A DNA stretch of 64,000 nt, from NCBI GenBank assembly GCA_005223185.1, contig NJBN01000002.1, positions 310,001 through 374,000 on the forward strand. The letters run 5' to 3'. Source of the DNA: a candidate division LCP-89 bacterium B3_LCP. Lineage in GTDB: Bacteria; Electryoneota; B3-LCP. This document shows, one piece after another, positions 282 through 14,915 of this stretch (position 1 is its first letter; every line of letters starts with the position of its first letter). The notes below the pieces were generated by a model. It did not search any database and had not been told where the DNA came from. It saw only the letters and a list, made by a program, of their open reading frames with translations. The position numbers and the translations under genes are program-made.

Positions 282-1994
282 ATGCGTCTGTCACGCGCCT
301 TTATACCTACACTAAAAGAAACTCCTGCTGATGCTGTCATTCCCTCGCATCAGTTAATGATCCGTTCCGGTATGATCAAGCAACTTGCCGCCGGGATTTA
401 TTCCGAACTGCCCTTCGAATGGAAAGCTGCCCTTAAAGCCATAGGAATCGTTCGTGAGGAGATGAACAGGATCGGAGGTCAGGAACTCTTCCTGCCGATA
501 CTGAATCCTGTCGATGTATGGGAAGAAACTGGCAGAGCGACCGATTTCGGCGATGAGATGTTCAGACTGAAGGATCGCAAGAATCACCAGATGTGCTTAG
601 CGCCGACACACGAAGAGATAATCTGCGACATAGCCAGAACTTATATCCGATCTTACCGTGATCTCCCTCAGATCTGGTATCAATTTCAGTCGAAGATGCG
701 TGATGAACCCCGCCCCCGATCCGGCGTTTTACGGGCACGTCAGTTTATAATGAAGGATGCCTACAGCCTGGACGTCGATGAAGAGGGATTGGATGCCAGT
801 TACCAGTTGCACGCAGGAGCCTATCGCCGTATGTTTGATAGATGCGGACTGGATTTCTTCGAAGTCGGCGCTTCCAGCGGTCTGATGGGGGGGACTGGTT
901 CACAGGAATTTATGGTCGAATCCCCGCACGGTGAAGATCACACTGCACGATGTGATAAATGCGGTTATGCTGCCAATTTAGAAGTTGCTTCATCTAAGCC
1001 GCCACAAATTGACGATTCTGCGCAAGATGAATCACAGGGAGATCTAGAGCGCGTGGCAACGCCTGAAAAGCGAACCATCGAAGAGGTCAGCGGTTTTCTA
1101 AAAATTGCCCCGGAAAGATTGATAAAAACCATAATTATTATGGCTGGAGATGAAAAACCGGTCATGGTTCTTCTATCCGGTGATGATGAATTGCAGGAAG
1201 CTAAGCTTTTGTCTGCTCTGGGAGAAACCTCCAGGCCTGCTCATCCTGATGAAATTAAAGAAATCTTCGGCTGCGAAGCCGGTTTCCTGGGACCGTACAA
1301 GGCGCCGAAGATGCGTATAATTGCGGATAATCGTTTAAAAGGCGCTTCAGGTCGCGTTACAGGCGCTAATGAAGATCATTATCATATCACCGGTGTGGAT
1401 GAAGGACGCCACTTTCAACCTGATAGCTTCGAAGATTTGCGTACAGCTAAAGACGGTGAAGGATGCCCCAATTGCCAGGGGACTCTGCACGTAACCAATG
1501 CCATTGAGTTAGGGCACATCTTTAAATTAGGCACCAAGTATTCAAGTTCCATGGGCGCTAACATCCTCCACGAAAACGGGAAGGAGAGACCTATCGTCAT
1601 GGGGAGTTACGGCATAGGTATTGGACGCATCTTAGCCTGTGCAATTGAAAGTAATCATGACGAATTTGGCATCATCTGGCCTGAAAATATATCACCTTAT
1701 GATGTAATACTCATAGGCATAAACCTGGAGAATGACGAAAAAGTCCAGCAGAAAGCGGATTCCCTTTACGAACAGCTTCAATCAGAAGGTTTTGACGTTC
1801 TGTTTGATGACCGAAATGTGCGTCCGGGATTCAAATTCAAGGATGCCGATCTGCTGGGGATTCCTTATCAGGTCATAGTAAGCCCCAAGAGTCTCGAGCA
1901 GGGCGGGGTGGAGGTTAAAGTACGCCTTTCCGGCGAAAGAACCGTTATTAATAGCGACAATCTGTTAAATTTCTTGCGAGGAAATCATGAATGA
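282..1994 (+). CDS. proS: Prolyl-tRNA synthetase
   Basis: This class II synthetase charges tRNA-Pro with proline in the cytoplasm. The 570-residue length is that of the bacterial-type enzyme. Visible features are the class II motif 2 region (DEPRPRSGVLRARQF, near residue 140), the THEE motif near residue 106, an inserted YbaK-like editing domain at roughly 225-380, motif 3 (GSYGIGIGR near 440) and a C-terminal anticodon-binding domain. The frame is open from 195, but the promoter at 205-233 and the usual family N-terminus (MRLSRAFIPTLKE) support the ATG at 282. Its end overlaps the next gene by 8 bp. Confidence 0.96.
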   Translation: MRLSRAFIPTLKETPADAVIPSHQLMIRSGMIKQLAAGIYSELPFEWKAALKAIGIVREEMNRIGGQELFLPILNPVDVWEETGRATDFGDEMFRLKDRKNHQMCLAPTHEEIICDIARTYIRSYRDLPQIWYQFQSKMRDEPRPRSGVLRARQFIMKDAYSLDVDEEGLDASYQLHAGAYRRMFDRCGLDFFEVGASSGLMGGTGSQEFMVESPHGEDHTARCDKCGYAANLEVASSKPPQIDDSAQDESQGDLERVATPEKRTIEEVSGFLKIAPERLIKTIIIMAGDEKPVMVLLSGDDELQEAKLLSALGETSRPAHPDEIKEIFGCEAGFLGPYKAPKMRIIADNRLKGASGRVTGANEDHYHITGVDEGRHFQPDSFEDLRTAKDGEGCPNCQGTLHVTNAIELGHIFKLGTKYSSSMGANILHENGKERPIVMGSYGIGIGRILACAIESNHDEFGIIWPENISPYDVILIGINLENDEKVQQKADSLYEQLQSEGFDVLFDDRNVRPGFKFKDADLLGIPYQVIVSPKSLEQGGVEVKVRLSGERTVINSDNLLNFLRGNHE

Positions 1995-2355
1995 AGAGAA
2001 TAAAACTAACGAAAATAGCGAAGATACCACTGTACCATACGCAGAAGTACAGGAAGATGACGCCAATGTAAAAGAAGAGGGGAAGCTTGCCGCGATTCTG
2101 GCTTATGTTCCCTTTCTGTGCTTTTACGCTCTGTTCTTTAAAAAGGACAATTCCTACGCATTTCAACACGGTAAACAGGGGCTGGCGATTTTCATCATCG
2201 AATTAGCTGCCGTTGCATTGCGTTGGGATGTGCTCTGGAATGTGCTCCTTTTCCTCTGTGCTGCAGTAGCCGTATGGGGAATGGTGACCGCCTTGCGAGG
2301 CGACGATTTCCGTTTGCCAATTATTTCTGATCTACTTGATCAATATCAACCTTAG
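1987..2355 (+). CDS. Small DUF4870/Tic20-like membrane protein
   Basis: The 122-residue protein has an acidic, hydrophilic N-terminus of about 30 residues and then two to three hydrophobic segments (about 35-50, 65-83 and 86-105). The motif FQHGKQGLAIFI resembles the YAxxHxxQAL signature of DUF4870 and Tic20-like membrane proteins. The start codon overlaps the 3' end of proS, so the two are probably co-transcribed. Function is unknown. The family assignment is by motif resemblance only. Confidence 0.72.
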   Translation: MNEENKTNENSEDTTVPYAEVQEDDANVKEEGKLAAILAYVPFLCFYALFFKKDNSYAFQHGKQGLAIFIIELAAVALRWDVLWNVLLFLCAAVAVWGMVTALRGDDFRLPIISDLLDQYQP

Positions 2356-2373
2356 GAGTTGACAGATCCGTAA

Positions 2374-2443
2374 GGGGGCTTACGCCCAAGAATGTCCGTC
2401 CTCCACCGTTGTTACCGGGGAGGTTAGGTATTCCTACCTGACT
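2374..2443. repeat. Cluster of short dispersed repeat modules
   Basis: Three modules in this gap recur in the Roco intergenic region. GGGGGCTTACGCCCA (2374-2388) is exact at 12201-12215. AAGAATGTCCGTCCT (2388-2402) recurs on the opposite strand at 11886-11900. The 28-nt segment 2416-2443 recurs on the opposite strand at 11932-11959 with four differences, all in paired positions of a hairpin. The order of modules differs between the two places. Confidence 0.7.
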
Positions 2444-2448
2444 ATAAT
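2423..2448 (+). promoter_or_regulatory. Inverted repeat abutting a -10 box, before the ceramide genes
   Basis: GTTAGGTA-TTCC-TACCTGAC (2423-2442) is an 8-bp inverted repeat with one G:T pair. It directly abuts TATAAT at 2443-2448, 65 bp before the spt start. It could be an operator in the promoter spacer. No good -35 box is visible 17 bp upstream, and the hairpin belongs to a dispersed repeat family, so a regulatory role is only inferred. Confidence 0.35.
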
Positions 2449-2512
2449 ATGTTGTACAAAATTTTTATGATTGGTTTGTCATCGCAACCCCTCCAAATCG
2501 AAAGGATTCCGA

Positions 2513-3697
2513 ATGAGGATTCGTGACCGAGCACGCGCATTCACCGCCGCACGTGAAGTAATGGCATTGGGTTATTACCCCTACTTTAGGCCGATTGAAT
2601 CGGATCAGGATACCGTCGTGCACCTGGATGGTAAGGAAGTGCTGATGCTCGGCTCGAATAATTACCTGGGACTTACCAATCATCCTGAGGTTAAAGAAGC
2701 TGCCATGCAGGCTATTCGTGATTTCGGTACCGGTTGCGCCGGGTCGCGATTTTTAAACGGCACCCTGGTAATACACATCGAATTGGAGGAAAAATTAGCT
2801 GAATTTTTAAATAAGGAAGCTGTCCTGCTGTTCTCGACCGGCTTTCAGGTGAATCAAGGCGTCATCTCCACCCTGATAGGCAAGGATTCCGTTGTGTTCT
2901 CAGATAAGTTAGACCATGCTTCTATCATAGATGGCTGCCGGTTAGCCTTTGGCAGATCGCTGAAATACAACCATAACGATATGACCGATCTGGAGAGGGT
3001 ACTTAAGAGTGTGAATGAAGCCAAATCACGGTTGATTGTCGTCGATGGCGTATTTTCCATGGAAGGCGACATTGCTAAACTTCCGGAAATTGTGAGACTG
3101 GCTGAAGAATACGATACTGAAGTTATGGTTGACGACGCTCATTCCCTGGGCGTTCTGGGTCCTAATGGTGATGGCACCGCAGCGCATTTTGGATTAAACG
3201 ACCGGGTTGCCTTGATTATGGGCACTTTTTCAAAATCGCTTGCTTCGGTGGGAGGATTCATAGCCTCCGATGAGGATACCATACATTATTTAAAACATCA
3301 CTCGCGCGCACTGATTTTCTCCGCTTCTCCGCCGCCTGCTTCCGTTGCTTCTGTTCTCAAGGCGCTGGAAATCGTCCAGCGTGAACCGGAACGTCGGCAA
3401 AAGCTGTGGGATAACACCCACCGTTTAGTAGCGGGGTTGAAGGAATCCGGGTTCGATTTGGGACCTTCTGAAACCCCCATTATTCCCGTGATCGTAGGCG
3501 ATAATCTTAAAGTGTTCATCTTCTGCAAACGCTTGCAGGAAGAGGGTATCTTCGTAAATCCTGTGGTATCGCCTGCAGTTCAGCCCGGCAACCAGTTGAT
3601 CAGAATCAGCCTCATGTCCACGCATTCCTTTGATCAGGTGGATTTCGCGCTGGAAAAACTTACCCTCGTGGGGAAGGAACTGGAACTCATCCCGTAG
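2513..3697 (+). CDS. spt: Serine palmitoyltransferase-like alpha-oxoamine synthase
   Basis: This is a PLP-dependent enzyme of the alpha-oxoamine synthase family (394 aa). The family condenses an amino acid with an acyl-CoA or acyl-ACP. Visible are HASIIDG (about 136), the PLP-binding DDAHS (about 207) and the Schiff-base lysine in [12 protein letters not shown] (about 241). The segments GSRFLNGT and HIELEE, and the CerS- and CerR-like neighbours, favour serine palmitoyltransferase over BioF or Kbl. The product would be 3-ketosphinganine. The ATG at 2513 follows AAAGGA. A TTG at 2471 in the same frame lacks support. It heads a three-gene cluster. BioF or Kbl activity remains possible. Confidence 0.85.
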
Positions 3698-3730
3698 TCG
3701 GGCTTGCCTGCCCTTTGGCATGGGTCGCTT

Positions 3731-3758
3731 GCCCCTTCGGGGCCTGCCCCTATGGGGC
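3731..3758. repeat. Two tandem GC-rich hairpins between spt and the next gene
   Basis: GCCCC-TTC-GGGGC (3731-3743) and GCCCC-TAT-GGGGC (3746-3758) lie side by side in the 111-bp gap between spt and the ceramide synthase-like gene. No T-run follows, so these are not ordinary terminators. They could stabilise the spt mRNA or be repeat debris. Confidence 0.5.
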
Positions 3759-3808
3759 CTCCCGTCCCCGTCCCAATATATTATTTTCACTAATCGACAC
3801 TACCCCTC

Positions 3809-4921
3809 ATGTCAATCCAAATTGAAATAATCCGCAAGGAACGCCACCTGAAAGGTTTTCTTAACCTTCCCAGGCATATTTACCGCGGTAATCCCAACTG
3901 GGTGCCTCCACTTATCTCTGACATTAAGAAAACACTCCATCCCCAGAAGAACCCCTTCTTCCAGCATGCTCAGATGACCCGCATGATCGCTAAGAAAAAT
4001 GGAAAAATCGCTGGTCGAATCTGTGCGATCCACGATCATGCTCATCAGGATTATTGGCAGGAACCGGTCGGCTTCTTCGGCTTCTTCGAATGTATAGACG
4101 ACCAGGAAGTTGCTGATACTCTGATCGCAGCAGCGGCAGAATGGCTGCGCCAGAGGGGAATCAAGACCATGCGCGGGCCGATGAATCCTTCAACGAACGA
4201 TTCCTGCGGTGTGTTGATTGACAGTTTTGACGTACCGCCAGTATTGATGATGCCTTACAACCCGCCTTACTATAACACGCTGATTGAAAAGGCAGGTCTT
4301 GCCAAAGTTAAAGACCTCTATGCTTATAAAATATCCAAAGATGACATCCCCGAACGCATAATACGCATCGGCGATAAGATCGCCGAGCGAATTAACGTGA
4401 ACATCAGACCGGTCATTATTAAAGACTTTAAGAACGAAATCGAACGGATCCGTTCGATTTACAATCAAGCCTGGTCCAAGAACTGGGGTTTCGTGCCCAT
4501 GACTGAAGCGGAATTCGATCATACCGCTAAAGACCTGAAGAAAATTATCGATCCCCAGTTGGCATTTATTGCCGAAGATGAAGGTCAAGCAGTGGGATTT
4601 TCTCTGGCTCTGCCGGATCTTAACATAGCGCTGAAGCACCTTAATGGCCGGCTTTTCCCCTTTGGAATCTTAAAATTACTCTACTATTCCAGAAAGATAA
4701 ATTGTGCTCGCGTTATCACTATGGGAGTTGTGGAAGGCTACAGAAATCGTGGCATAGACATTCTGTTCTATCTCGAATCTCTTCGCAGGGCCGTTGCCAA
4801 CGGGTACAATTGGGGGGAGTTATCCTGGGTTTTAGAAGATAATGATGCTATGAACAAAGCCATCGAGATGGTTGGTGGGAAGGTGTACAAACGTTATCGT
4901 ATTTACGAAATGCCGCTATGA
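3809..4921 (+). CDS. GNAT-fold protein, candidate bacterial ceramide synthase
   Basis: The 370-residue protein has a GNAT acyltransferase-like C-terminus. ITMGVVEGYRNRGID (about residues 300-315) matches the acyl-CoA binding region of the fold, followed by a helix and strand that end in RIYEMPL. The N-terminal half has the pattern of large bacterial GNAT-like proteins (HIYRGNPNWVPPL, then MRGPMNPSTNDSCG). Bacterial ceramide synthases such as Caulobacter bCerS are GNAT-related proteins of this kind, and they sit with an SPT and an epimerase-like CerR, as here. Function is inferred from that context. No Shine-Dalgarno sequence is obvious. The gene overlaps the next one by 4 bp (ATGA). Confidence 0.72.
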   Translation: MSIQIEIIRKERHLKGFLNLPRHIYRGNPNWVPPLISDIKKTLHPQKNPFFQHAQMTRMIAKKNGKIAGRICAIHDHAHQDYWQEPVGFFGFFECIDDQEVADTLIAAAAEWLRQRGIKTMRGPMNPSTNDSCGVLIDSFDVPPVLMMPYNPPYYNTLIEKAGLAKVKDLYAYKISKDDIPERIIRIGDKIAERINVNIRPVIIKDFKNEIERIRSIYNQAWSKNWGFVPMTEAEFDHTAKDLKKIIDPQLAFIAEDEGQAVGFSLALPDLNIALKHLNGRLFPFGILKLLYYSRKINCARVITMGVVEGYRNRGIDILFYLESLRRAVANGYNWGELSWVLEDNDAMNKAIEMVGGKVYKRYRIYEMPL

Positions 4922-5904
4922 ACAGACCTGTCCTGGTAACCGGGGGAAATGGCTTTGTCGGCAGCCACGTTGTCGAAGAACTGCTGCAGGAGGGGTATTC
5001 CGTTCGATGTCTATTAAGGCCGCATTCCCGCCCTGATTGGATTGAAACCCTGCCGGTTGACATCGTAAGAACTGATTATTCAGATCTCAATTCATTAAGA
5101 GAAGCGATCTCAGGATGTGAAGCAATCCTTCATTTCGGTGGAGCCACCAAGGCTAAGAATAAGGAAAGCTATTTTGACGCCAATGCCAGGACGACCGGTA
5201 ATCTATTAGAGGCTGCAACGGACGTCTGTCCCGATCTATCCCTGTTTCTGTTCTGTTCCAGTCAGGCGGCGGTCGGTCCTTCACCATCTTTAGACCCCTT
5301 GGACGAAAACGCGCCTCCGCATCCCATCTCAGCATACGGTTGGTCCAAGATGACCGCCGAGAAGATCTGCTTAGAGAGTCAAGCCAAATTCCCCCTATGC
5401 ATCGTTCGTCCATCGGCAGTTTACGGTCCCCGTGATAAAGATATCTTGATTTTCTTCAAAGCGATGCGCTGGGGGATTGCGCCTGCAATCGGTAGGGGGG
5501 AGCGATATCTGAGCATGGTCTATGTCAAGGATATCGCCAGACTGTGCGGACTCATTTTGAAGAAGAAACCGCAAGGAACACAGATATTTCACGTAACTGA
5601 TGGCGACATGCACCGCTGGAGTACCATTAGCGACACTATCGCTGAGGCGATGGATAAACGCCCCCTTAGAGTAAATGTGCCTGTAGGTCTAACCGTTCTA
5701 ATTGGCAAAATCCTCTCAGGCTACGCTAACTTCGCCGGTAGAATCGCCACCCTGAACCGTGAAAAGATAGATGACATTTTGCAGAATTACTGGCTGATAA
5801 GTTCGGATAAAGCTCAAAAAGAACTCGGCTTCAAACCGAAATACAAGCTCTCTGATGGAGTGGAGGAAACGGTTCGCTGGTACAGAGAGCATGGGTGGTT
5901 GTAG
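4918..5904 (+). CDS. NAD-dependent epimerase/dehydratase, candidate ceramide reductase
   Basis: This is an extended short-chain dehydrogenase of 328 aa. The N-terminal VTGGNGFVGSH has the GxxGxxG dinucleotide-binding motif (about residues 7-15). The catalytic pair is in AYGWSK (Tyr about 140, Lys about 144). RPSAVYGPRD is typical of NAD-dependent epimerase family members. Its 4-bp overlap with the GNAT-like gene implies translational coupling. In bacterial sphingolipid clusters a protein of this family (CerR) reduces 3-ketoceramide, and that role is inferred here. A sugar-nucleotide or sterol dehydrogenase role cannot be excluded. Confidence 0.8.
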   Translation: MNRPVLVTGGNGFVGSHVVEELLQEGYSVRCLLRPHSRPDWIETLPVDIVRTDYSDLNSLREAISGCEAILHFGGATKAKNKESYFDANARTTGNLLEAATDVCPDLSLFLFCSSQAAVGPSPSLDPLDENAPPHPISAYGWSKMTAEKICLESQAKFPLCIVRPSAVYGPRDKDILIFFKAMRWGIAPAIGRGERYLSMVYVKDIARLCGLILKKKPQGTQIFHVTDGDMHRWSTISDTIAEAMDKRPLRVNVPVGLTVLIGKILSGYANFAGRIATLNREKIDDILQNYWLISSDKAQKELGFKPKYKLSDGVEETVRWYREHGWL

Positions 5905-5923
5905 GTTGATCGATAGTGTATTT

Positions 5924-6046
5924 CCCCCCTTATCCCAAGGGGGGTGTCAGTCGGCAGACTGACGGGGGGATTTGTTCGGGAACACCTGCGCCTTTGGGGA
6001 CATCCGCAGTGTGCAGGGACACTGCAGCACCAGTGATATGAATAAC
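5924..6046. repeat. Palindromes and a shared element upstream of the first Roco gene
   Basis: CCCCCC/GGGGGG (5924-5944) and GTCAGTC-GGCA-GACTGAC (5946-5963) form adjacent hairpins, followed by a further GGGGGGA. The segment 6004-6046 (CCGCAG...AATAAC) is clearly similar to 11987-12028, which lies upstream of the second Roco gene. Both contain GTGCAGGGA and end in a TAT-rich, AATAAC-containing stretch. No good promoter was recognised. Confidence 0.55.
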
Positions 6047-6061
6047 ACAGAGGAAAAAAAC

Positions 6062-9000
6062 ATGACAGACCTTGATACCATAAAACAAATTGAAAAAATA
6101 CTAAAATTGAAGCTTGAGGAATTAGACGAAGTTGACTGGTATACTAGAGGCTACACAATAAACTTTAAGGGAGAGGTTACAGGATTAAGCTTATATGACT
6201 GCAAAATAAGCAATCTTAGTCTTATCATTTCCCCGTTGGAGGGCTTGACGAGTTTAACGGCATTATATCTAGCTCAAAATCTACTCAACGATATTTCCCC
6301 GCTGGAGGGTCTGGTAAACTTAACGGAATTAAATTTAGGTATTAATCATCTCAGCGATATTTCCCCGCTGAAGGGTTTGACGAACTTGACGAGATTAGAT
6401 TTATCCAACAGTCGACTCAGTGATATTTCGCCACTGAAGGGTTTGACAAACCTAACTAAATTAGAAATTAACAGTAATCATCTCAGTGATATTTCCCCGC
6501 TGAAGGATTTGTCGAATCTAACAACATTATATTTGCAAGAAAATCATCTCAGTGATATTTCCCCGCTGAAGGGTTTGACGAATTTAACGACAGTGCATTT
6601 AGGTAGCAATCAACTCAGCGATATTTCCCCCCTGAAGAGTTTGACGAACTTAACAGAGTTAGACTTAGGTGGGAATAAACTCAGCGATATTTCCCCCCTG
6701 AATGGTTTAACGAACTTAACAGAGTTAGACTTAGGTGGGAATAAACTCAGCGATATTTCCCCCCTGAATGGTTTAACGAACCTAACGAAATTACATTTAC
6801 CAAATAATCAACTGAGTGATATTTCCCCGCTGGAGGGTTTGACGAAGTTAAAGGATTTAGTTTTGTTAAGTAATCAACTTAGCGATATTTCACCGCTGGA
6901 GGGTTTGACGAATTTAACGGAATTACTTTTATACGACAATAAACTCAGCGATATTACCCCGCTGAAGGATTTGACGAAATTGAACTTAATAGATTTTGAT
7001 GGGAATCCGTTAAAAATATTACCACCCTGGATCACAGATTTTAACATGGACATTAAATGGACAAAGCAAATAACGGAAGGATGCATTACTTTTTATGGCA
7101 ATCCGCTGCAAACACCGCCTGTGGAAATTGTCAAGCAAGGCAAAGAGGCGGTGAGGAGTTATTTTGCATCTCTAAAAGATAAGAAGAAAGTTGTAAAACT
7201 TAACGAAGTACGGATTTTACTGGTTGGCGATGGCATGGCGGGCAAGACGTCATTACTCAAACAGATTCAGGGTTTGGAATTCAACGAAAATGAATCACAG
7301 ACGCACGGGATCAATGTCCTTACCTTACCTGCCAACGATATACGCGGATTGGGGAATTTGAGTAAAATAAAAGACTGCCAGCTTCATTTCTGGGATTTTG
7401 GCGGGCAGGAGATAATGCACGCTTCCCACCAGTTTTTCCTGAGCAAGCGTTCACTTTACATTTTAGTGCTTGACAGCCGCACGGACAGTAAAAAATACTA
7501 CTGGCTCAAACATATCGAGAAATATGGCGGTGATTCACCACTCATCGTGGTCATGAATAAGATGGATGAAAATCCTAATTACAACATTGAGCAGAAGAAG
7601 ATCAATGATGGTTTTTCCAATATCGGAAACCGCTTTTTTCGCCTCTCGTGCAAGGATAAGGAGGGTCTCCCTGAATATTTGACATGTTTAGGAAAAACGA
7701 TTCCTGAAACCTCACTCTATGGCACGGATATCAATATCGACTGGATAAATATAAGAGACAAACTGATTGAAGCAACGCAAGCGAGTAATTACATCAGCCG
7801 TAAAGAATTTATTAAGATCTGCACTGAAAACAACGTAAAAGATGAAAGCAGCCAGCTTACATTATTGAAATTCCTGCATGATTTAGGTGTTGTCCTGTTT
7901 TTCGAGAAACTACAACTTGCCAGCATATATGTGTTAGATCCACACTGGGTTACCATAGGCGTATATAAGATCATCAATTCGGCAAAAATCAAAGAGGGCA
8001 TATTAAGAGAACGAGACCTTGATTATATCCTGAACAAGGAGGTAATCAAGAAAGAGGAATACGATCCTGCAAGGGAGAAGAAAATCACCTATAGTCTGGA
8101 TGAACAGCGATACATTATCGACATCATGATGCAATTTGATCTCTGCTATGAATACGATCAAGATAATAATCATTACATAATTCCCGATTTACTCCCAAAA
8201 GAATTAAAGAATGAACCGGAATTGGACGAAGGCACGCCGCTCCGTTTTGTGATGAAATACGATTATCTGCCAACTCCGGTCATATCCCGGTTAATGATTC
8301 GCTTGAAAAACGATATCGTCAAAGGTCAGCAGTGGAAATACGGGATGATATTGGAGAATGAAGAATTTAATTGTAAAGCAAAAGTAAGGTCAGATGAGGA
8401 AAACAAGACGATTGAAATTACAGTACAGGGTGAGATGAGATGCAAGCAGAAGTATTTCTCGGCTATATTGTATCAACTGAATGATATAAATAGAAGCTTT
8501 GAGAATTTAAACATAGAGGAATTTATACCTCTGCCGGGTCATCAGGATATTTTAGTTGATTATAAAGAATTATTAGGATTTGAGAGGGCAAGCAGAGATG
8601 AATATTTCGTAGGTAAGTTAGGAGAAGAATTTTCAGTGTCAGAAATGCTGGATAGCGTTATCAGCAAGGACGATAGAATAAAGCATCATTCCCGAGGCGG
8701 TGAAGATACTTTGCGGGAAAGGTTTGATCGATTAGACGAAAAATTGGACGCCATGTCAGAAGAAAACAAGAGTGCTCTCAAAACAATATTGAGCAGGCTT
8801 GATGAATCGGAGAAAACTATCGTCAACCTGATATACCAGAAGATCGATGATAAAGAAATAACCCAAATGGAAACGTTCCAGGTTCTTGCGGATGTTGCGC
8901 AGGGAATTGAACAGCTTGAAGAAAAGATGATCAAAGGAGAGGATATCGATAGGATAAAACAAATCTATGATGCTGTAAATAAAACGGATGACGTAACTTC

Positions 9001-9115
9001 TAAATTTAAACTGACTATCCCCATAATCCCTCTGCTACTTAGTTTTGAGCAAGAGCTTGATATAAGCAGTTCTTTGAACAAATTCTGGAAAAAGATGCAG
9101 AATTGTTTGTTCTAA
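6062..9115 (+). CDS. LRR-Roc-COR (Roco) GTPase
   Basis: The 1017-residue protein has about twelve 22-residue internalin-like leucine-rich repeats at residues 50-325 (consensus LTxLxLxxNxLSDISPLKGLTN). A Roc GTPase domain follows, with P-loop GDGMAGKT near 389, WDFGGQE as G3 and NKMD as G4. Then come a COR dimerisation region (about 560-830) and a helical, probably coiled-coil C-terminus. The ATG at 6062 follows AGAGGA. The frame is open upstream to 5972, but that stretch is repeat sequence. It is paralogous to 12258-14915. Bacterial Roco proteins are GTP-regulated dimers, and their roles are mostly unknown. The gene looks more AT-rich than its neighbours, suggesting acquisition. Confidence 0.93.
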   Translation: MTDLDTIKQIEKILKLKLEELDEVDWYTRGYTINFKGEVTGLSLYDCKISNLSLIISPLEGLTSLTALYLAQNLLNDISPLEGLVNLTELNLGINHLSDISPLKGLTNLTRLDLSNSRLSDISPLKGLTNLTKLEINSNHLSDISPLKDLSNLTTLYLQENHLSDISPLKGLTNLTTVHLGSNQLSDISPLKSLTNLTELDLGGNKLSDISPLNGLTNLTELDLGGNKLSDISPLNGLTNLTKLHLPNNQLSDISPLEGLTKLKDLVLLSNQLSDISPLEGLTNLTELLLYDNKLSDITPLKDLTKLNLIDFDGNPLKILPPWITDFNMDIKWTKQITEGCITFYGNPLQTPPVEIVKQGKEAVRSYFASLKDKKKVVKLNEVRILLVGDGMAGKTSLLKQIQGLEFNENESQTHGINVLTLPANDIRGLGNLSKIKDCQLHFWDFGGQEIMHASHQFFLSKRSLYILVLDSRTDSKKYYWLKHIEKYGGDSPLIVVMNKMDENPNYNIEQKKINDGFSNIGNRFFRLSCKDKEGLPEYLTCLGKTIPETSLYGTDINIDWINIRDKLIEATQASNYISRKEFIKICTENNVKDESSQLTLLKFLHDLGVVLFFEKLQLASIYVLDPHWVTIGVYKIINSAKIKEGILRERDLDYILNKEVIKKEEYDPAREKKITYSLDEQRYIIDIMMQFDLCYEYDQDNNHYIIPDLLPKELKNEPELDEGTPLRFVMKYDYLPTPVISRLMIRLKNDIVKGQQWKYGMILENEEFNCKAKVRSDEENKTIEITVQGEMRCKQKYFSAILYQLNDINRSFENLNIEEFIPLPGHQDILVDYKELLGFERASRDEYFVGKLGEEFSVSEMLDSVISKDDRIKHHSRGGEDTLRERFDRLDEKLDAMSEENKSALKTILSRLDESEKTIVNLIYQKIDDKEITQMETFQVLADVAQGIEQLEEKMIKGEDIDRIKQIYDAVNKTDDVTSKFKLTIPIIPLLLSFEQELDISSSLNKFWKKMQNCLF
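6645..6776 (+). repeat. Exact 66-bp tandem duplication in the LRR array
   Basis: The unit 6645-6710 is repeated without a single change at 6711-6776. It encodes one complete 22-residue leucine-rich repeat, including the segment LDLGGNKLSDISPL. Flanking LRR units are similar but diverged. Identity down to third codon positions points to a recent unit duplication. Confidence 0.95.
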
Positions 9116-9161
9116 GATAAAAAAATAGACGGATGGGGGGTGCCCCGATTTTGCCACAAGT

Positions 9162-9195
9162 AAAAAAGCGGTCATGGAGTAGTCCATAACCGCTT
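9162..9195 (-). terminator. Rho-independent terminator of the PpiD-like gene
   Basis: A 13-bp stem with one mismatch (9166-9178 with 9183-9195, loop GTAG) is followed on the minus strand by a run of six T. It lies just after the stop of the minus-strand gene at 9219. The hairpin is also downstream of the converging Roco gene but lacks a T-run on that side. Confidence 0.8.
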
Positions 9196-9218
9196 GGTTG
9201 ACTGCTTTCTTAGTATGC

Positions 9219-11024
9219 CTAATAATCCCGATAGTAGAGGTATCTAAAATCTTCAATATCCGCGTTTTCCTGTGCTACCCTCAGCCATTCAGAATAGTAT
9301 TGATTCTGTTTGCTGGTTAATAACTGGCTGCGTAGTTCTTCCCGCTTTTCTAAGAATTCTGAAGAATCGACCTCGGTTTTTTCGGTCAACTGGATCAGGT
9401 AATACCCTTTCTGCCCTTTCACAGGTTGGGATAGTTCTCCCACATCAAGCCTCAGAGCAGAACTGGTGAACGTCAGGTCTCTGCCAACGCCGCGCACGTA
9501 ATCGTCAAACTTGAACTCAAGCTCGGTCTCTTTCACTTCTAAGCTTTCCGCTTCTGCGATGCTGGCAAAATCCTCCAGCGAATCGATTCTTTTACGAAGA
9601 TCGCCGCATTGCTCATATGTCTGCTGGAGTTTGGCTTCCTTATACAGGTTCGAGAAAATCAGATTTCTGACTTCGGCTAATTCTTGTGTGTGCGCTTTCT
9701 GCACATCGAAGATCCTGAAGACTAAAAGAGCATCACGTATGCTATAGATCATGCTGGTTTCGCCCACCAGTCTGGCGAAGATGAAATCCACCGCAGCCGG
9801 CAGTCTGCCCACTCCAGGAATTATATCATTTTGATCGAAGAACGATGAAGTATCAACTTCTACGCCGTATATCTCAGCAGCGGAGGCGAAATCATTCTCT
9901 CTGGTCTCCTCTGCAAATCCCGTGGCACTGCTACCGATTTTATCACGTGTATCCGGTGATAGTTTTATCTTCAAGAGTATATGACTGGCGGCAATCTCAT
10001 CACCTTTCTTACCCTTCCTTTTATCGGTAACTTTGATGATGTGATAACCGAATTGTGACATAACCGGTCCCTTTACCTCGCCAACTTTGGTGGAAAAAGC
10101 AGCTTCTTCAAATTCCGGAACCATCTGTCCTCTGGCGAAGAAACCCAAATCTCCGCCTTTTTCGCTGGTTACGTCCTCAGAAAACTCCTTGGCCAATTCT
10201 GCAAAGTCATCACCTTCGTCTATCCTCGCCACGATTTCATCAGCTAATTCCTGCGCAGCAGCAGAATCTTCTGATGATGGCTGTTCAGGGAACATGGTAT
10301 ATATGATCTGTCTCTTCTCAGCAATGAAATACTCATCGCGATGCTGAAAATAGTAATCCTCGATCTGCTTGTCAGTTACAACGGCGCTGTCAACGGCAGC
10401 ATTTCCTTTGTCGAAAAGCACGTAACTCGCTTTGCCTTTTAAATTATCGTCTGTGTATTTCTGCCATACTTCCTGGTCAGTTACCGAAGCCAAGGCCAAT
10501 ATCTGGTTCAGAAACTTCTGCTGGGGAAGTGATTTACGATAGCTCTCTTCGATCATCATCAGGTCGCTTGCTGCTCTTGGATTGCGCAGAAATTCCTGGT
10601 ATTTAGTTTCATCGAAGAACCCATCAGTCTGGAAATATTCATTCTGCCTGATGAAGTCGGGCGGATTGGTCTGAATCAGATGGGCGATCTCTTTGTCTGA
10701 TATCTTGATGCCCAACCTTTGTACTTCCTGCTCTATGATAATATCACGAACGAGTTCATCCCATACTTCAGTGCGGATCTGTTTTGTGCGGTATTCGGTC
10801 AGATCAGTTTCGCTCTGATTCTGTTCGTATACAAGTTTCTGCTGAATCAGATCCTGCAACCGCTCGAAGGTGATCTCCACGCCGTTTATGGAGGCAACAA
10901 TTCCCTGTTTGGGACCACTGCCCTGAAAACCGCCCATACCCCAGGAAAAGACGATAGTTCCTATAAAAGCCAGAATAAGAATCCACAAGATGGCCTTCAT
11001 ATTCTGGCGCATAGTCTGCATCAT
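9219..11024 (-). CDS. ppiD: PpiD/SurA-like peptidyl-prolyl isomerase
   Basis: The 601-residue protein has a single N-terminal membrane anchor (MKAILWILILAFIGTIVFSW, residues 9-28) and a SurA/PpiD-type N-terminal chaperone region. A parvulin (PpiC) domain at about 228-345 contains GGDLGFFARGQMVPEFEEAAF and a closing FGYHIIKV segment. A second degenerate parvulin-like segment lies near the C-terminus. It probably helps outer-membrane or secreted proteins fold in the periplasm. The ATG follows GGAG. It stands alone between the two Roco genes, in the opposite orientation. Confidence 0.92.
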   Translation of the reverse strand: MMQTMRQNMKAILWILILAFIGTIVFSWGMGGFQGSGPKQGIVASINGVEITFERLQDLIQQKLVYEQNQSETDLTEYRTKQIRTEVWDELVRDIIIEQEVQRLGIKISDKEIAHLIQTNPPDFIRQNEYFQTDGFFDETKYQEFLRNPRAASDLMMIEESYRKSLPQQKFLNQILALASVTDQEVWQKYTDDNLKGKASYVLFDKGNAAVDSAVVTDKQIEDYYFQHRDEYFIAEKRQIIYTMFPEQPSSEDSAAAQELADEIVARIDEGDDFAELAKEFSEDVTSEKGGDLGFFARGQMVPEFEEAAFSTKVGEVKGPVMSQFGYHIIKVTDKRKGKKGDEIAASHILLKIKLSPDTRDKIGSSATGFAEETRENDFASAAEIYGVEVDTSSFFDQNDIIPGVGRLPAAVDFIFARLVGETSMIYSIRDALLVFRIFDVQKAHTQELAEVRNLIFSNLYKEAKLQQTYEQCGDLRKRIDSLEDFASIAEAESLEVKETELEFKFDDYVRGVGRDLTFTSSALRLDVGELSQPVKGQKGYYLIQLTEKTEVDSSEFLEKREELRSQLLTSKQNQYYSEWLRVAQENADIEDFRYLYYRDY

Positions 11025-11269
11025 GATGAACTGCTCCGGATGAATTTTCTCATGTGTTTGAAATAATTTTGCTTAAGCTAACAATATATATTTTTCCGGA
11101 AGTAAAATCAAGCAATATTCACAGTTTTGTATTGTGTTGTGCCTGCCATAAAACAGGCGGAATAATTTCAGTATTACACCGCTCCATCAATTTTCTGTTG
11201 TATCGAGCTACTCTGCGGTTTTTTAAAAATCGCCGAGTACGGGGGGCTCGGGCGGCACGGAAAGTGACA

Positions 11270-11500
11270 GATGTGGCGGACAAAATCCAGTGTCGGACAA
11301 TTATGGCGGTGATATCACGCACGATTGGAACCGTGCAGCGACATTATTGACGCTAAAGTGAGATGGCAGTGAATGGATGTTGTACATTGTTAAGATATGT
11401 TTTTGGGAAGGTTTTATGGACAAATAATTACGGGTGCATTAGGGCTCTTGTATATAATATACAACAATTCACGGGGAAAAGCAAGGGAAATTTGAGGGAA
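11270..11500. repeat. Dispersed non-coding repeat, copy 1
   Basis: The segment starting GACAGATGTGGCGGACAAAA aligns with 58965 onward. The first 29 positions differ at two sites, and further similarity continues through a GCGACA...CGC hairpin. Both copies then carry the exact 16-mer TATAATATACAACAAT (11453-11468 here) followed by a GAAA-GCAAG stretch. The middle part has diverged. The element contains several small inverted repeats and no coding frame. Confidence 0.65.
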
Positions 11501-11753
11501 TATTAAGTGACTTGATAGAAGTGTCGGGGTCAGGGGCACCATAGGCGCAGGCGACCCCGTCTGACGCTATTCCTCAAATCCCTTCTTGATATTGCTCTGA
11601 AATGTGTTTAAATTACATGAGTCGGGTTTCATCCAGGTAGAAGAAATAATAGGAGAAACCAGGCTCTGAAGAAGCCGGGGCACACGCAGAGTGAATGAAA
11701 CCTAACCCTGAAGAGGTCGGGGCACCCGGCACCCGGGGGGTAGGGTGAAGGAA

Positions 11754-11830
11754 GGCAATGTCATTCTGGCACAGTCCAGAATCTGACATTGCCGTCTGTC
11801 CGATTCCGAACAAGTCGGAATGACAGACGG
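11754..11830. repeat. Two tandem long hairpins of the GTCATTC family
   Basis: Hairpin 1 (11754-11793) pairs GGCAATGTCATTCTGG with 11776-11793. It has a 16-bp stem and a two-base bulge (TC) in one arm. Hairpin 2 (11792-11830) pairs CCGTCTGTCCGATTCCGA with TCGGAATGACAGACGG, again 16 bp with a two-base bulge (CG). In a common orientation both read GTCATTC...GAATCnGAC. The outer stem bases differ between copies but stay complementary. A third copy is at 44159-44198. Confidence 0.75.
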
Positions 11831-11885
11831 AAGAATATTGATCAGCGGGAATCAGTGGTTAAGACAAAAAAAACATCTCATGGGT

Positions 11886-12028
11886 AGGACGGACATTCTT
11901 GTCTGTCCAATTTACTACTCTTTACGAGCAAAGTCAGACAGGAATGTCTAACCTCCCCGCTTTCAAACAGCAGGGCTGTTGAGCACCCGCAGAGTGCAGG
12001 GATAATGCGGCACTGACAGTATAATAAC
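11886..12028. repeat. Repeat modules shared with the spt and Roco upstream regions
   Basis: 11886-11900 is the exact reverse complement of 2388-2402. 11932-11959 is the reverse complement of 2416-2443 with four differences, forming two compensated base pairs in the stem around a TTCC loop. 11987-12028 resembles 6004-6046 upstream of the first Roco gene. Confidence 0.7.
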
Positions 12029-12257
12029 GGTCACTCGGGAATGAATTCCCGAGCTATTTTACTTCAGTCCATCGGCTGACGGACGCAAAGGTTTTTAAGC
12101 GTCCCGCTTGAGCGGGACAGCATTAAATTAGCCTGGAAATTCATTTCCGGGCGGTGCAAGGATATTTTTAAAAGCCATAAGCGGGGCCAGAAGCCAGTGA
12201 GGGGGCTTACGCCCATGCCACCCATTACTGCTGAGAACCAACCCAAGAGGAAAAACC

Positions 12258-14915
12258 ATGTCAGACCTTGATGCAATAAAACAAATTGAGAAAATACTGG
12301 AAGTGAAGTTAGAAAAAGTAAACAAAATTTCTTGGGACCGCAGATGCTATTCACTAAAACATAACAGAGAGGTTACAGGATTAAGCTTATATGACTGCAG
12401 AATAAGCAATCTTAGTCTTATCATTTCCCCGTTGGAGGGCTTATCAAACTTAACAAGATTATGTTTATACAGGAATCAACTCAGCGATATTTCCCCACTG
12501 AAAGATATGACGAGTTTAGTGACATTGGATTTAGATGTAAATCTACTCAGCGATATCTCCCCGTTGAAGGATTTAACAAATTTAACATATTTAAGTTTAG
12601 GACATAATCAACTTAGTGATATTTCCCCGTTGAAAGGCTTAACAAACTTAACTAAATTACATTTATACAAAAATCAACTCAACCATATTCTTCCACTGCA
12701 GGAACTGACAAAATTATGCATTTTACATTTAAGAGACAATCCATTAAGCACTCTGCCGCCCTGGATCACAGATTTTGATATGGACATTAAATGGAAAAAT
12801 GGAGCAAAAGAAGGATGCATCACTTTCTACAACAGCCCGCTGGAAAAACCGCCAGTTGAGGTTGTCAAGCAGGGCAAGGAGGCGGTGAGGAGTTATTTTG
12901 CGCAGATAGAGAAACAGGGGGTGGATAATATTTATGAAGCCAAATTGATGCTTGTGGGAGAACCGGGATCAGGTAAAACCACCTTAATGAATTTATTATT
13001 CGACAAAGATATTCCAGTGCCCAATAAGGAACAAAAATCAACGTTAGGCATCGAGGTTCGTCCGGATTGGAGTTTCAGTATCGGCGGCAAAGAGGATTTC
13101 AAAGCTCACGTCTGGGATTTCGGGGGACAGCAGATTCAGTACATGCTGCACCAGTTTTTTCTCACTCCCAATTGTCTATATGTCCTGATGGCGGAGAAAC
13201 GAAAGGAGCTGGGCAACTTCGATTACTGGCTGAATATCATAAACGTTCTATGCACAAACAGCCCCGTCGTCACCCTGTTCAATGAGATTGACATCGACTT
13301 CATACCGTCCTTCATATATGATGAGAAGAAGTATAAGGGCTTGTTTCCCGATCTCAACCTGCAGAGATTTGACGTCAACTTAGCAGATATGTCCGATGGC
13401 AGGTTTGACGTTCTTATAAAGGCAGTACAGAAGAAAATCAGTACACTTGAACACATCGGGGAGAAGGTCCCGGCGCGCTGGGTGGACGTCCGCAGAGAAC
13501 TGCAGAATAGAATGGGTGAAAAGCACATTCGCATAAGTGAGTATTTTGATATCTGCAGGAATTTCGATATTGAGAAAGAGGAAGACCAGACGTTACTGTT
13601 GCGGTACTTTCACCTTTTAGGTATAGTGCTGCATTTCGGTGAAGATGAGAACCTATGCGACACCCTGTTCCTGGATCCTAACTGGACTGTCGATGCCATC
13701 TACTCGGTTTTAGCCAACAAGGAGGTTGAAAAAAGTTTTGGTTTTATCAAAAAGTCCCACGTCGATAGAATCTGGAGTGAGAAAGGGTACGATTTCGAGG
13801 AGAGAGCTAATCTGCTGCGATTGATGCTGAAGGACAATTTTGAGCTCTGTTATAAACTGCCGGATACAGAGGATGATTACATCGTTCCTCTGCTCTTATC
13901 GCCTCAGAAGCCGGAATATCCCTGGGATAGTAAGGACAATCTGCTGTTTCGCTTTCAGTATCCATTTATGCCGGAAGGCATCGTCAGCCGCCTGATCGTT
14001 CGTATGCACGAATATGCGGATCAGGAGAATGTATGGAACGAGGGAGTGGTGCTCAATAAAGACGGGGCAAATGCTCAGGTTATCGAGCAGAAGACCGTAA
14101 AGGAGGGGTTGAAGGTAATCGAAATCAGGCTGACCGGAACGCCCAACGGCCGCAAGGATCTGTTGACGTTGATACGCGAGGAGATAAAAAAGATCCAGAA
14201 TAGCTCATTCCCAAATCTTCCCTATGCCGAAATGGTGCCCTGCCATTGTGCTGAGTGCGCGATTGCAGAGACGCCCTACTTCTTCGATTATGGCGATATA
14301 GAGACCTACCTGAACAAGGGGAAGACTAAGATCGACTGTCGTAAGAGCACCGAGAAAATGCCAATCGCCGATCTGGTCGGCAGTGTGTTCAATATGGATG
14401 AAATAGAGGAGAGGTTAAAAAGAACCATGGATGAACGGAAGAATATTTTCAATATCAGTAATGTTGTAAGTCCACAGCAGAATGTAACGCAGCAGGTAGA
14501 ACAGACTGTTACTCAGCAGCAAACGGTTGAAATGCACCAGGAAGTAAAAAATGTACAGGGCTTATTGGGAAACCTGAAGGGAGATATCTTAGATGAAGCT
14601 GAGATAGAAATCAAAGATGAAGGCGAGAAGAAGCGGTTAAGAAACGAGTTGGAAAAAGCTGAGAAAGCATTTTCGGAATTGGAAAAAGCAGCTTCAGAGG
14701 GTGAAAAAGAACTACCGGCAGGAACACAGGATCGAATCAGCGAATTTATTGACAACCTTAAAGATGAAAATTCTCGAATCAGAAAAGCACTCAATTTCGT
14801 TTCCAAAGGAGCGCAGAAAGTCCAGAAGTTAGGTCGAGTATATAATAAATTCGCTCCATATTTCACCTTACCTTCCATACCACCGATACTTGTTGGGAAG
14901 GAAGATAAAAGTTGA
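12258..14915 (+). CDS. LRR-Roc-COR (Roco) GTPase, second paralogue
   Basis: The 885-residue protein has five leucine-rich repeats (about 50-165) and a Roc domain with P-loop GEPGSGKT near 234 and WDFGGQQ near 284. The G4 element reads NEID instead of NKxD. A COR-like region follows. A cysteine motif (CHCAEC about 657, then a lone Cys near 694) fits metal binding. The C-terminus is a glutamine-rich linker (TQQVEQTVTQQQ) and a long coiled coil. The ATG follows AGAGGA. The N-terminal region is nearly identical in DNA to the other Roco gene. Its partner or signal output is unknown. The changed G4 motif may lower guanine specificity. Confidence 0.92.
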   Translation: MSDLDAIKQIEKILEVKLEKVNKISWDRRCYSLKHNREVTGLSLYDCRISNLSLIISPLEGLSNLTRLCLYRNQLSDISPLKDMTSLVTLDLDVNLLSDISPLKDLTNLTYLSLGHNQLSDISPLKGLTNLTKLHLYKNQLNHILPLQELTKLCILHLRDNPLSTLPPWITDFDMDIKWKNGAKEGCITFYNSPLEKPPVEVVKQGKEAVRSYFAQIEKQGVDNIYEAKLMLVGEPGSGKTTLMNLLFDKDIPVPNKEQKSTLGIEVRPDWSFSIGGKEDFKAHVWDFGGQQIQYMLHQFFLTPNCLYVLMAEKRKELGNFDYWLNIINVLCTNSPVVTLFNEIDIDFIPSFIYDEKKYKGLFPDLNLQRFDVNLADMSDGRFDVLIKAVQKKISTLEHIGEKVPARWVDVRRELQNRMGEKHIRISEYFDICRNFDIEKEEDQTLLLRYFHLLGIVLHFGEDENLCDTLFLDPNWTVDAIYSVLANKEVEKSFGFIKKSHVDRIWSEKGYDFEERANLLRLMLKDNFELCYKLPDTEDDYIVPLLLSPQKPEYPWDSKDNLLFRFQYPFMPEGIVSRLIVRMHEYADQENVWNEGVVLNKDGANAQVIEQKTVKEGLKVIEIRLTGTPNGRKDLLTLIREEIKKIQNSSFPNLPYAEMVPCHCAECAIAETPYFFDYGDIETYLNKGKTKIDCRKSTEKMPIADLVGSVFNMDEIEERLKRTMDERKNIFNISNVVSPQQNVTQQVEQTVTQQQTVEMHQEVKNVQGLLGNLKGDILDEAEIEIKDEGEKKRLRNELEKAEKAFSELEKAASEGEKELPAGTQDRISEFIDNLKDENSRIRKALNFVSKGAQKVQKLGRVYNKFAPYFTLPSIPPILVGKEDKS

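Follow-up and report, generated by a model that had tools for sequence, protein, structure and literature searches.

The window analysed here, 64,000 nucleotides of contig NJBN01000002.1 of the candidate division LCP-89 bacterium B3_LCP, contains a short hairpin twice, once ahead of spt and the ceramide genes and once in the gap next to a Roco gene. What is this hairpin, and what does it do at these two places? The preliminary description of the sequence took it for an element under selection for pairing, either as RNA or as a DNA palindrome, and tied one copy to a promoter. The results below agree on the pairing and lead to another identity: the two hairpins are copies of a mobile REP palindrome rather than a two-copy promoter motif.

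Two inverted doublets in the window

On recounting, 24 of 28 bases are indeed common to 2416-2443 and the reverse complement of 11932-11959, and all four mismatched bases belong to two compensated stem pairs around a constant TTCC loop, as both sequence and pairing bear out. The TATAAT said to adjoin the first copy starts on the final base of the hairpin, the remainder being flank outside the repeat. Both hairpins proved to be the T halves of inverted doublets, located at about 2360-2443 and 11882-11958. Their partner halves, missed in the preliminary description, were recognised by R1, a covariance model of the family (Table 1). The feet of the two halves lie inside the doublet at spt and outside in the Roco gap. 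The 3' arm of the A half at spt appears to be split by a 21-nt palindromic segment, so that this half spans about 2360-2406. The Roco-gap doublet, which stands in a divergent setting with no stop codon near, folds as a single long hairpin (z -3.4), and single halves taken alone give a weak single-strand DNA fold (z -1.2 and -1.9). Next to this doublet, another inverted repeat, of the GTCATTCYGR...CGGAATGACAGACGG kind, was seen by eye at 11757-11835.

Table 1. Hairpins, associated motifs and nested palindromes, with positions in the window or in the locus named.
Feature	Sequence	Position	Strand	Basis
T-type REP hairpin of the spt-upstream doublet (foot GGGGAG, stem, loop TTCC)	window	2417-2443	+	R1, 41.1 bits; sequence, pairing
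A-type partner hairpin, heads-in to the T half, 3' arm interrupted	window	2360-2406	-	R1 match 2380-2406, 30.2 bits; extension to 2360 by eye
21-nt palindromic segment (GGCGTAAGCCCCCTTACGG + AT) within the spt A half, common to a second palindrome family; nested palindrome	window	2366-2386	-	
TATAAT, first T = last hairpin base	window	2443-2448	+	
A-type REP hairpin of the Roco-gap doublet, foot GGGTAG	window	11882-11908	+	R1, 38.9 bits
T-type REP hairpin of the Roco-gap doublet	window	11932-11958	-	R1, 45.0 bits
Nested palindrome	L062	5493-5540		
Nested palindrome	L239	1911-1957		
Nested palindrome	L256	2490-2539		
Nested palindrome	L336	550-596		
Nested palindrome	L331	564-610		
Nested palindrome	L340	620-666		

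A dispersed hairpin family in the B3_LCP genome

The B3_LCP genome was searched as an assembly of 3.79 Mb in 18 contigs, 95.8% complete. A BLAST search with the second copy and its surroundings revealed a dispersed family, with 35 matches at E<=10 and 16 at E<=0.001. A pattern search allowing 3 mismatches, which is too loose for counting copies, returned 79 places versus 22 for the reversed control. From this search and the flanks of its hits, 57 candidate hairpins were taken, and four with unpaired stems (C4:50948, C16:361461, C18:300572 and C18:330433) were dropped before the model was built; two others (C6:41573 and C16:313468) were kept despite 3 mismatches. The remaining 53 copies (45 distinct), including both window hairpins, were used to construct R1. 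The genome-wide scan with such a model, which the preliminary description had proposed as a check, gave the same 53 copies at E<=0.01, followed by a next match at E=0.27, and none of the four dropped hairpins at E<=10. R1 matches its own members by construction; the informative part of this result is the clean gap beneath them.

The repeat unit, roughly GGGGAG-GWYRGRYA-TTCN-TRYCYRWC, is a palindrome of 27 nt. Its 5' foot, GGGGAG, consists of six mostly unpaired bases and is followed by eight pairs round a four-base loop. The GGAG of the foot (columns 3-6) is conserved at a level of at least 90% in each column. A GTAG foot occurs in a few copies of this genome, among them that at 11882, and of the relative G004, as well as in several of locus L239.

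Of the 53 copies, 52 fall outside any ORF of 100 aa or longer; for randomly drawn positions of these stretches the share is 16%. Both values are based on simple ORFs rather than on a gene caller. The neighbouring genes are unrelated to each other; their ORFs are codirectional around 40 of the 53 hairpins, convergent around 10 and divergent around 2. The copies form 35 clusters. A stop codon is found no more than 20 bp away in 16 of the 33 that have a stop-side flank, and a start equally near in 2 of the 29 that have a start-side flank.

Eighteen adjacent doublets were found within a distance of 150 bp, 15 with the feet outside (tails-in) and 3 with the feet inside (heads-in). Two types of unit exist, set apart by the third stem pair, which is A:T in the A-type and flipped to T:A in the T-type. 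Of the 18 doublets, 17 combine both types; in the 18th, G stands in place of the A. The same rule is obeyed by 37 of 39 doublets of relatives among the matches listed, a count which is complete for G001, G003 and G005, takes in 58 of 91 matches of G004 and none of the 86 of G002. A doublet of one type would form one long perfect inverted repeat, and the mismatch that mixed types would leave in this duplex may explain the persistence of mixed doublets.

Stem covariation

Among the 45 distinct copies, standard pairs occupy 90.9% of the stem cells. The covariation score was 0.378 versus 0.228 +/- 0.014 for shuffles (none of 500 as high), a control that leaves the relatedness among copies in place, and it fell to at most 0.091 when the partner column was slid. 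The outermost pair (column 6 with 27) lacks support, being unpaired in 26 of 45 copies. The hairpins of relatives covary likewise (0.319 versus 0.161 and 0.307 versus 0.168) in alignments fitted to R1. Counts of pair positions and pair types did not exceed those of the shuffles in the B3_LCP genome or in the first set from relatives (0.319). Uncompensated stem changes, named in the preliminary description as evidence against its claim, were found in a few degenerate copies, accounting for 11 of 360 cells of the inner eight pairs; overall, pairing has been kept.

Distribution among relatives and RAYT genes

An R1 match at E<=0.01 was obtained in 17 of the 41 genomes searched. By taxonomic group, these were all six genomes of the own family (f1), all nine of a second family (f2) and one of two of a third (f3). 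One genome of another phylum gave a single weak R1 match, and the remaining 23 of the 41 gave none at E<=0.01. The same palindrome family is present in other genera, with no control hits in five genomes, and is common to at least two taxonomic families of one phylum.

Ten Y1-transposase genes were detected in the B3_LCP genome, four of them over the cut-off of NF047646, the model for REP-associated transposases. No R1 match at E<=0.01 was found within about 6 kb of any of the ten (9 stretches), and the IS200-like genes of this genome were rejected as the cognate transposase, none being flanked by an R1 hairpin. In REP-bearing relatives, 60 RAYT loci were inspected; these are among the matches listed for such genomes, some (e.g., of G012 and G033) being omitted, and the regions L233 and L240 were stretched to include a known hairpin. 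In eight of the 60 loci (L228, L239, L244, L250, L256, L263, L277 and L283), the RAYT match has R1 hairpins at E<=0.01 to its left and right, in inverted orientation and at most about 170 bp away. In a tree of 66 RAYT proteins, seven of the eight fall into one branch of 11 rows (support 86/89), and L263 into its sister branch. Locus L259, whose R1 hairpins are weak (E 0.24), carries the R1 label in the tree but is left out of the eight. An alignment of nine proteins shows no variation in the HxH pair or in the YxxxNP residues.

The nearest B3_LCP protein to this cognate lineage is L045 (C18:285107; 43% over residues 44-126). Its homology is confined to the C-terminal two thirds, the N-terminal part having none; in the tree it is placed near the R1-linked branches on a long, unsure branch. 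L045 is flanked on both sides by repeats other than R1. The R1 copies of the B3_LCP genome therefore seem to have no enzyme of their own, unless its gene lies in the 4% absent from the assembly; they may be old.

The RAYT genes L041, L042, L043 and L045 of this genome each have their own, different inverted repeats as flanks, and several REP families therefore seem to coexist in it.

Clusters behind type IX secretion genes

For eleven of the 16 stop-adjacent clusters (<=20 bp), the gene in front has a C-terminus that scores above the cut-off of TIGR04183, the model of the type IX sorting domain. As a background, 7 of 136 ORFs had such a tail in stretches not chosen for R1; this count was made by a C-terminal pattern and not by TIGR04183, and the pattern also recovers all 11. 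The binomial probability of the excess is about 2e-11 at the background rate and 3e-8 at 10%, duplicated tail genes (e.g., two on C13) not being independent. In the genome as a whole, 150 of 338 TIGR04183 candidates were scored, all over the cut-off. The hairpin nearest to the stop is the A half in 16 of 16 clusters, and its foot points towards the stop in 15 (by eye). Examples of R1 clusters behind stops are found at L050, L062, L064, L067, L058, L061 and L069. Because spacers and stop codons differ among the tail-gene clusters, tail gene and doublet are not one copied cassette. In relatives the link is uneven: of 17 stop-adjacent hairpins at the 60 loci, 7 follow a tail gene, including all 6 of those in G004 but 1 of 8 in G005 and none of the 3 in G001.

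It is conceivable, though we consider it quite doubtful, that the REP family is non-neutral, its fixed polarity behind type IX cargo genes reflecting a shared 3' untranslated element or a recombination seam. If the enrichment survives a proper gene-call control, it would link the REP family to a functional gene class. At C16:134078-134320, a type IX tail ORF of 106 aa, perhaps a broken gene, stands directly behind an R1 doublet; the simple ORF call misses the rest of the gene.

Comparison with known REP systems and proposed origin

REPs are palindromes of 20-40 bp with a GTAG or CGTC foot, often arranged as dimers and mostly located 3' of coding regions, and their sub-families carry alternative complementary stem residues, according to Di Nocera 2013 (PMC3733652). 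As Nunvar 2010 (PMC2817692) describes, RAYT genes are flanked by inverted REPs with complementary mutations, and classical REPs usually exceed 100 copies. Single-strand recognition by RAYT and y-z mosaics are treated in PMC8266576.

The R1 family resembles the GTAG-type REPs and BIMEs/REPINs of E. coli (y/z), Pseudomonas and Stenotrophomonas, as covered in PMC3733652 and PMC2817692: it is a dispersed palindrome within the size range of 20-40 nt, with an unpaired 5' tetranucleotide foot in a variant form, inverted doublets of alternating orientation, intergenic and stop-side siting, and sub-families with complementary, compensated stem changes. The pairing of two unit types in one doublet corresponds to that of y with z in E. 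coli (PMC8266576). It differs from GTAG-type REPs in its mostly GGAG foot, 27-nt unit, TTCN loop and uncultured-type bacterial host, and from the classical families in having 53 copies, fewer than the usual number given in PMC2817692. In relatives, RAYT genes with the domain, HxH, YxxxNP and R1 on both sides form a REPtron comparable to the RAYT / TnpA-REP systems (NF047646; PMC8266576 and PMC6006769). Unlike in those systems, no such REPtron, with a cognate RAYT flanked by REPs, was found in the B3_LCP genome at 95.8% completeness; Y1 transposases related to those of IS200/IS605 (L037-L040) are present there, none flanked by an R1 hairpin.

Based on the observed family, its doublets, the covariation, the intergenic siting, the RAYT link in relatives and the absence of the hairpin from four spt loci of relatives, we suggest the following origin. 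Both window sites are very probably REP doublets (BIME/REPIN) of a family spread, most likely, by the RAYT lineage that it flanks in relatives, and mere passengers at spt and in the Roco gap. RAYT would recognise the folded single strand together with the foot, cleave next to the hairpin and carry the doublet to new intergenic places. Copies unable to fold would be neither recognised nor copied, which would keep the stem changes compensated. Any effects of the spt and Roco-gap doublets on neighbouring genes would be incidental. For the B3_LCP genome itself, with its orphan-looking copies, mobility is a supposition. The preliminary claim of selection for pairing thus stands insofar as pairing is maintained genome-wide, and the choice it left between RNA and DNA can be narrowed: the hairpin-flanked RAYT lineage in relatives, the one-sided foot and the doublets favour a DNA palindrome over a specific regulatory RNA. 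A promoter-like oddity is in this way explained as a mobile palindrome, and an uncultured-type lineage gains a RAYT/REP pair for which the range, the unit types and the lineage of the cognate enzyme are given.

Alternative explanations

The copy at spt adjoins TATAAT and ends 69 bp ahead of the likely spt ATG (2513), which would suit a role in regulating the spt/ceramide promoter, whether as an RNA leader or as an operator, with a second use at the Roco gap. The promoter link drawn in the preliminary description found no support. In the four closest relatives tested (L085-L088), where spt is 79-80% identical and preceded by the same gene, no R1 hairpin was found upstream of spt at E<=1; TATAAT stands 3' of the hairpin in 1 of 53 copies, and a simple sigma-70 scan of the plus strand at the spt copy gave no promoter-like site. 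In addition, the 53 copies lie by unrelated genes, and a known RNA family was rejected, as Rfam gave no match at gathering score in window 1900-12400. A regulatory element is thus very improbable. The gap between the upstream gene and spt measures about 53 bases in L085 (by eye) versus 157 in the window. Together with the hairpin-free spt loci, the single TATAAT and the missing sigma-70-like site, this makes insertion into a syntenic block, between two of its genes, the simplest account of the spt doublet. In a named collection, the closest relatives of spt carry the labels Zixiibacteriota, Calditrichaeota or simply bacterium. Sequences so short, with so weak a fold of each half, might be put down to unrelated chance hairpins or to an artefact of the assembly; the excess over the reversed control, the 53 strong R1 matches and the occurrence in other genera leave this a negligible probability, and copy number refutes it.

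Two further proposals concern the REP palindrome itself. Doublets might be transcribed 3'-end elements that protect or end mRNAs and are retained by selection after certain genes, a possible effect of REPs and not an alternative identity. The preference for stops over starts, the predominance of codirectional settings and the U-G pairs that are frequent at one stem position are in line with it. On the other hand, the spt copy showed no T-run terminator, the Roco-gap copy has a divergent setting away from any stop, and stop-side siting is typical of REPs in general according to PMC3733652; such a role is possible, but on the unlikely side. Compensation could also have arisen without selection. 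Template switching, a known mutational process, equalises the arms of an imperfect palindrome and would yield compensated pairs in any palindrome, pairing then being a product of mutation. The conserved foot, the A/T doublet rule and the RAYT flanks are left unexplained by it, and as a sole cause we hold it to be unlikely; template switching and RAYT selection could act together.

Nested palindromes

A literature search on nested insertions in REP loops found nothing. In several R1 hairpins, palindromes of about 20 nt are located inside the loop region, and the outer arms still match (Table 1). The segment within the spt A half (core GGCGTAAGCCCC) recurs inside a second palindrome family of the B3_LCP genome. 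The GGGGCTTACGCC core of the second family also occurs in the Roco gap at 12198-12213 (C12:322198), near the start of the Roco ORF at 12258.
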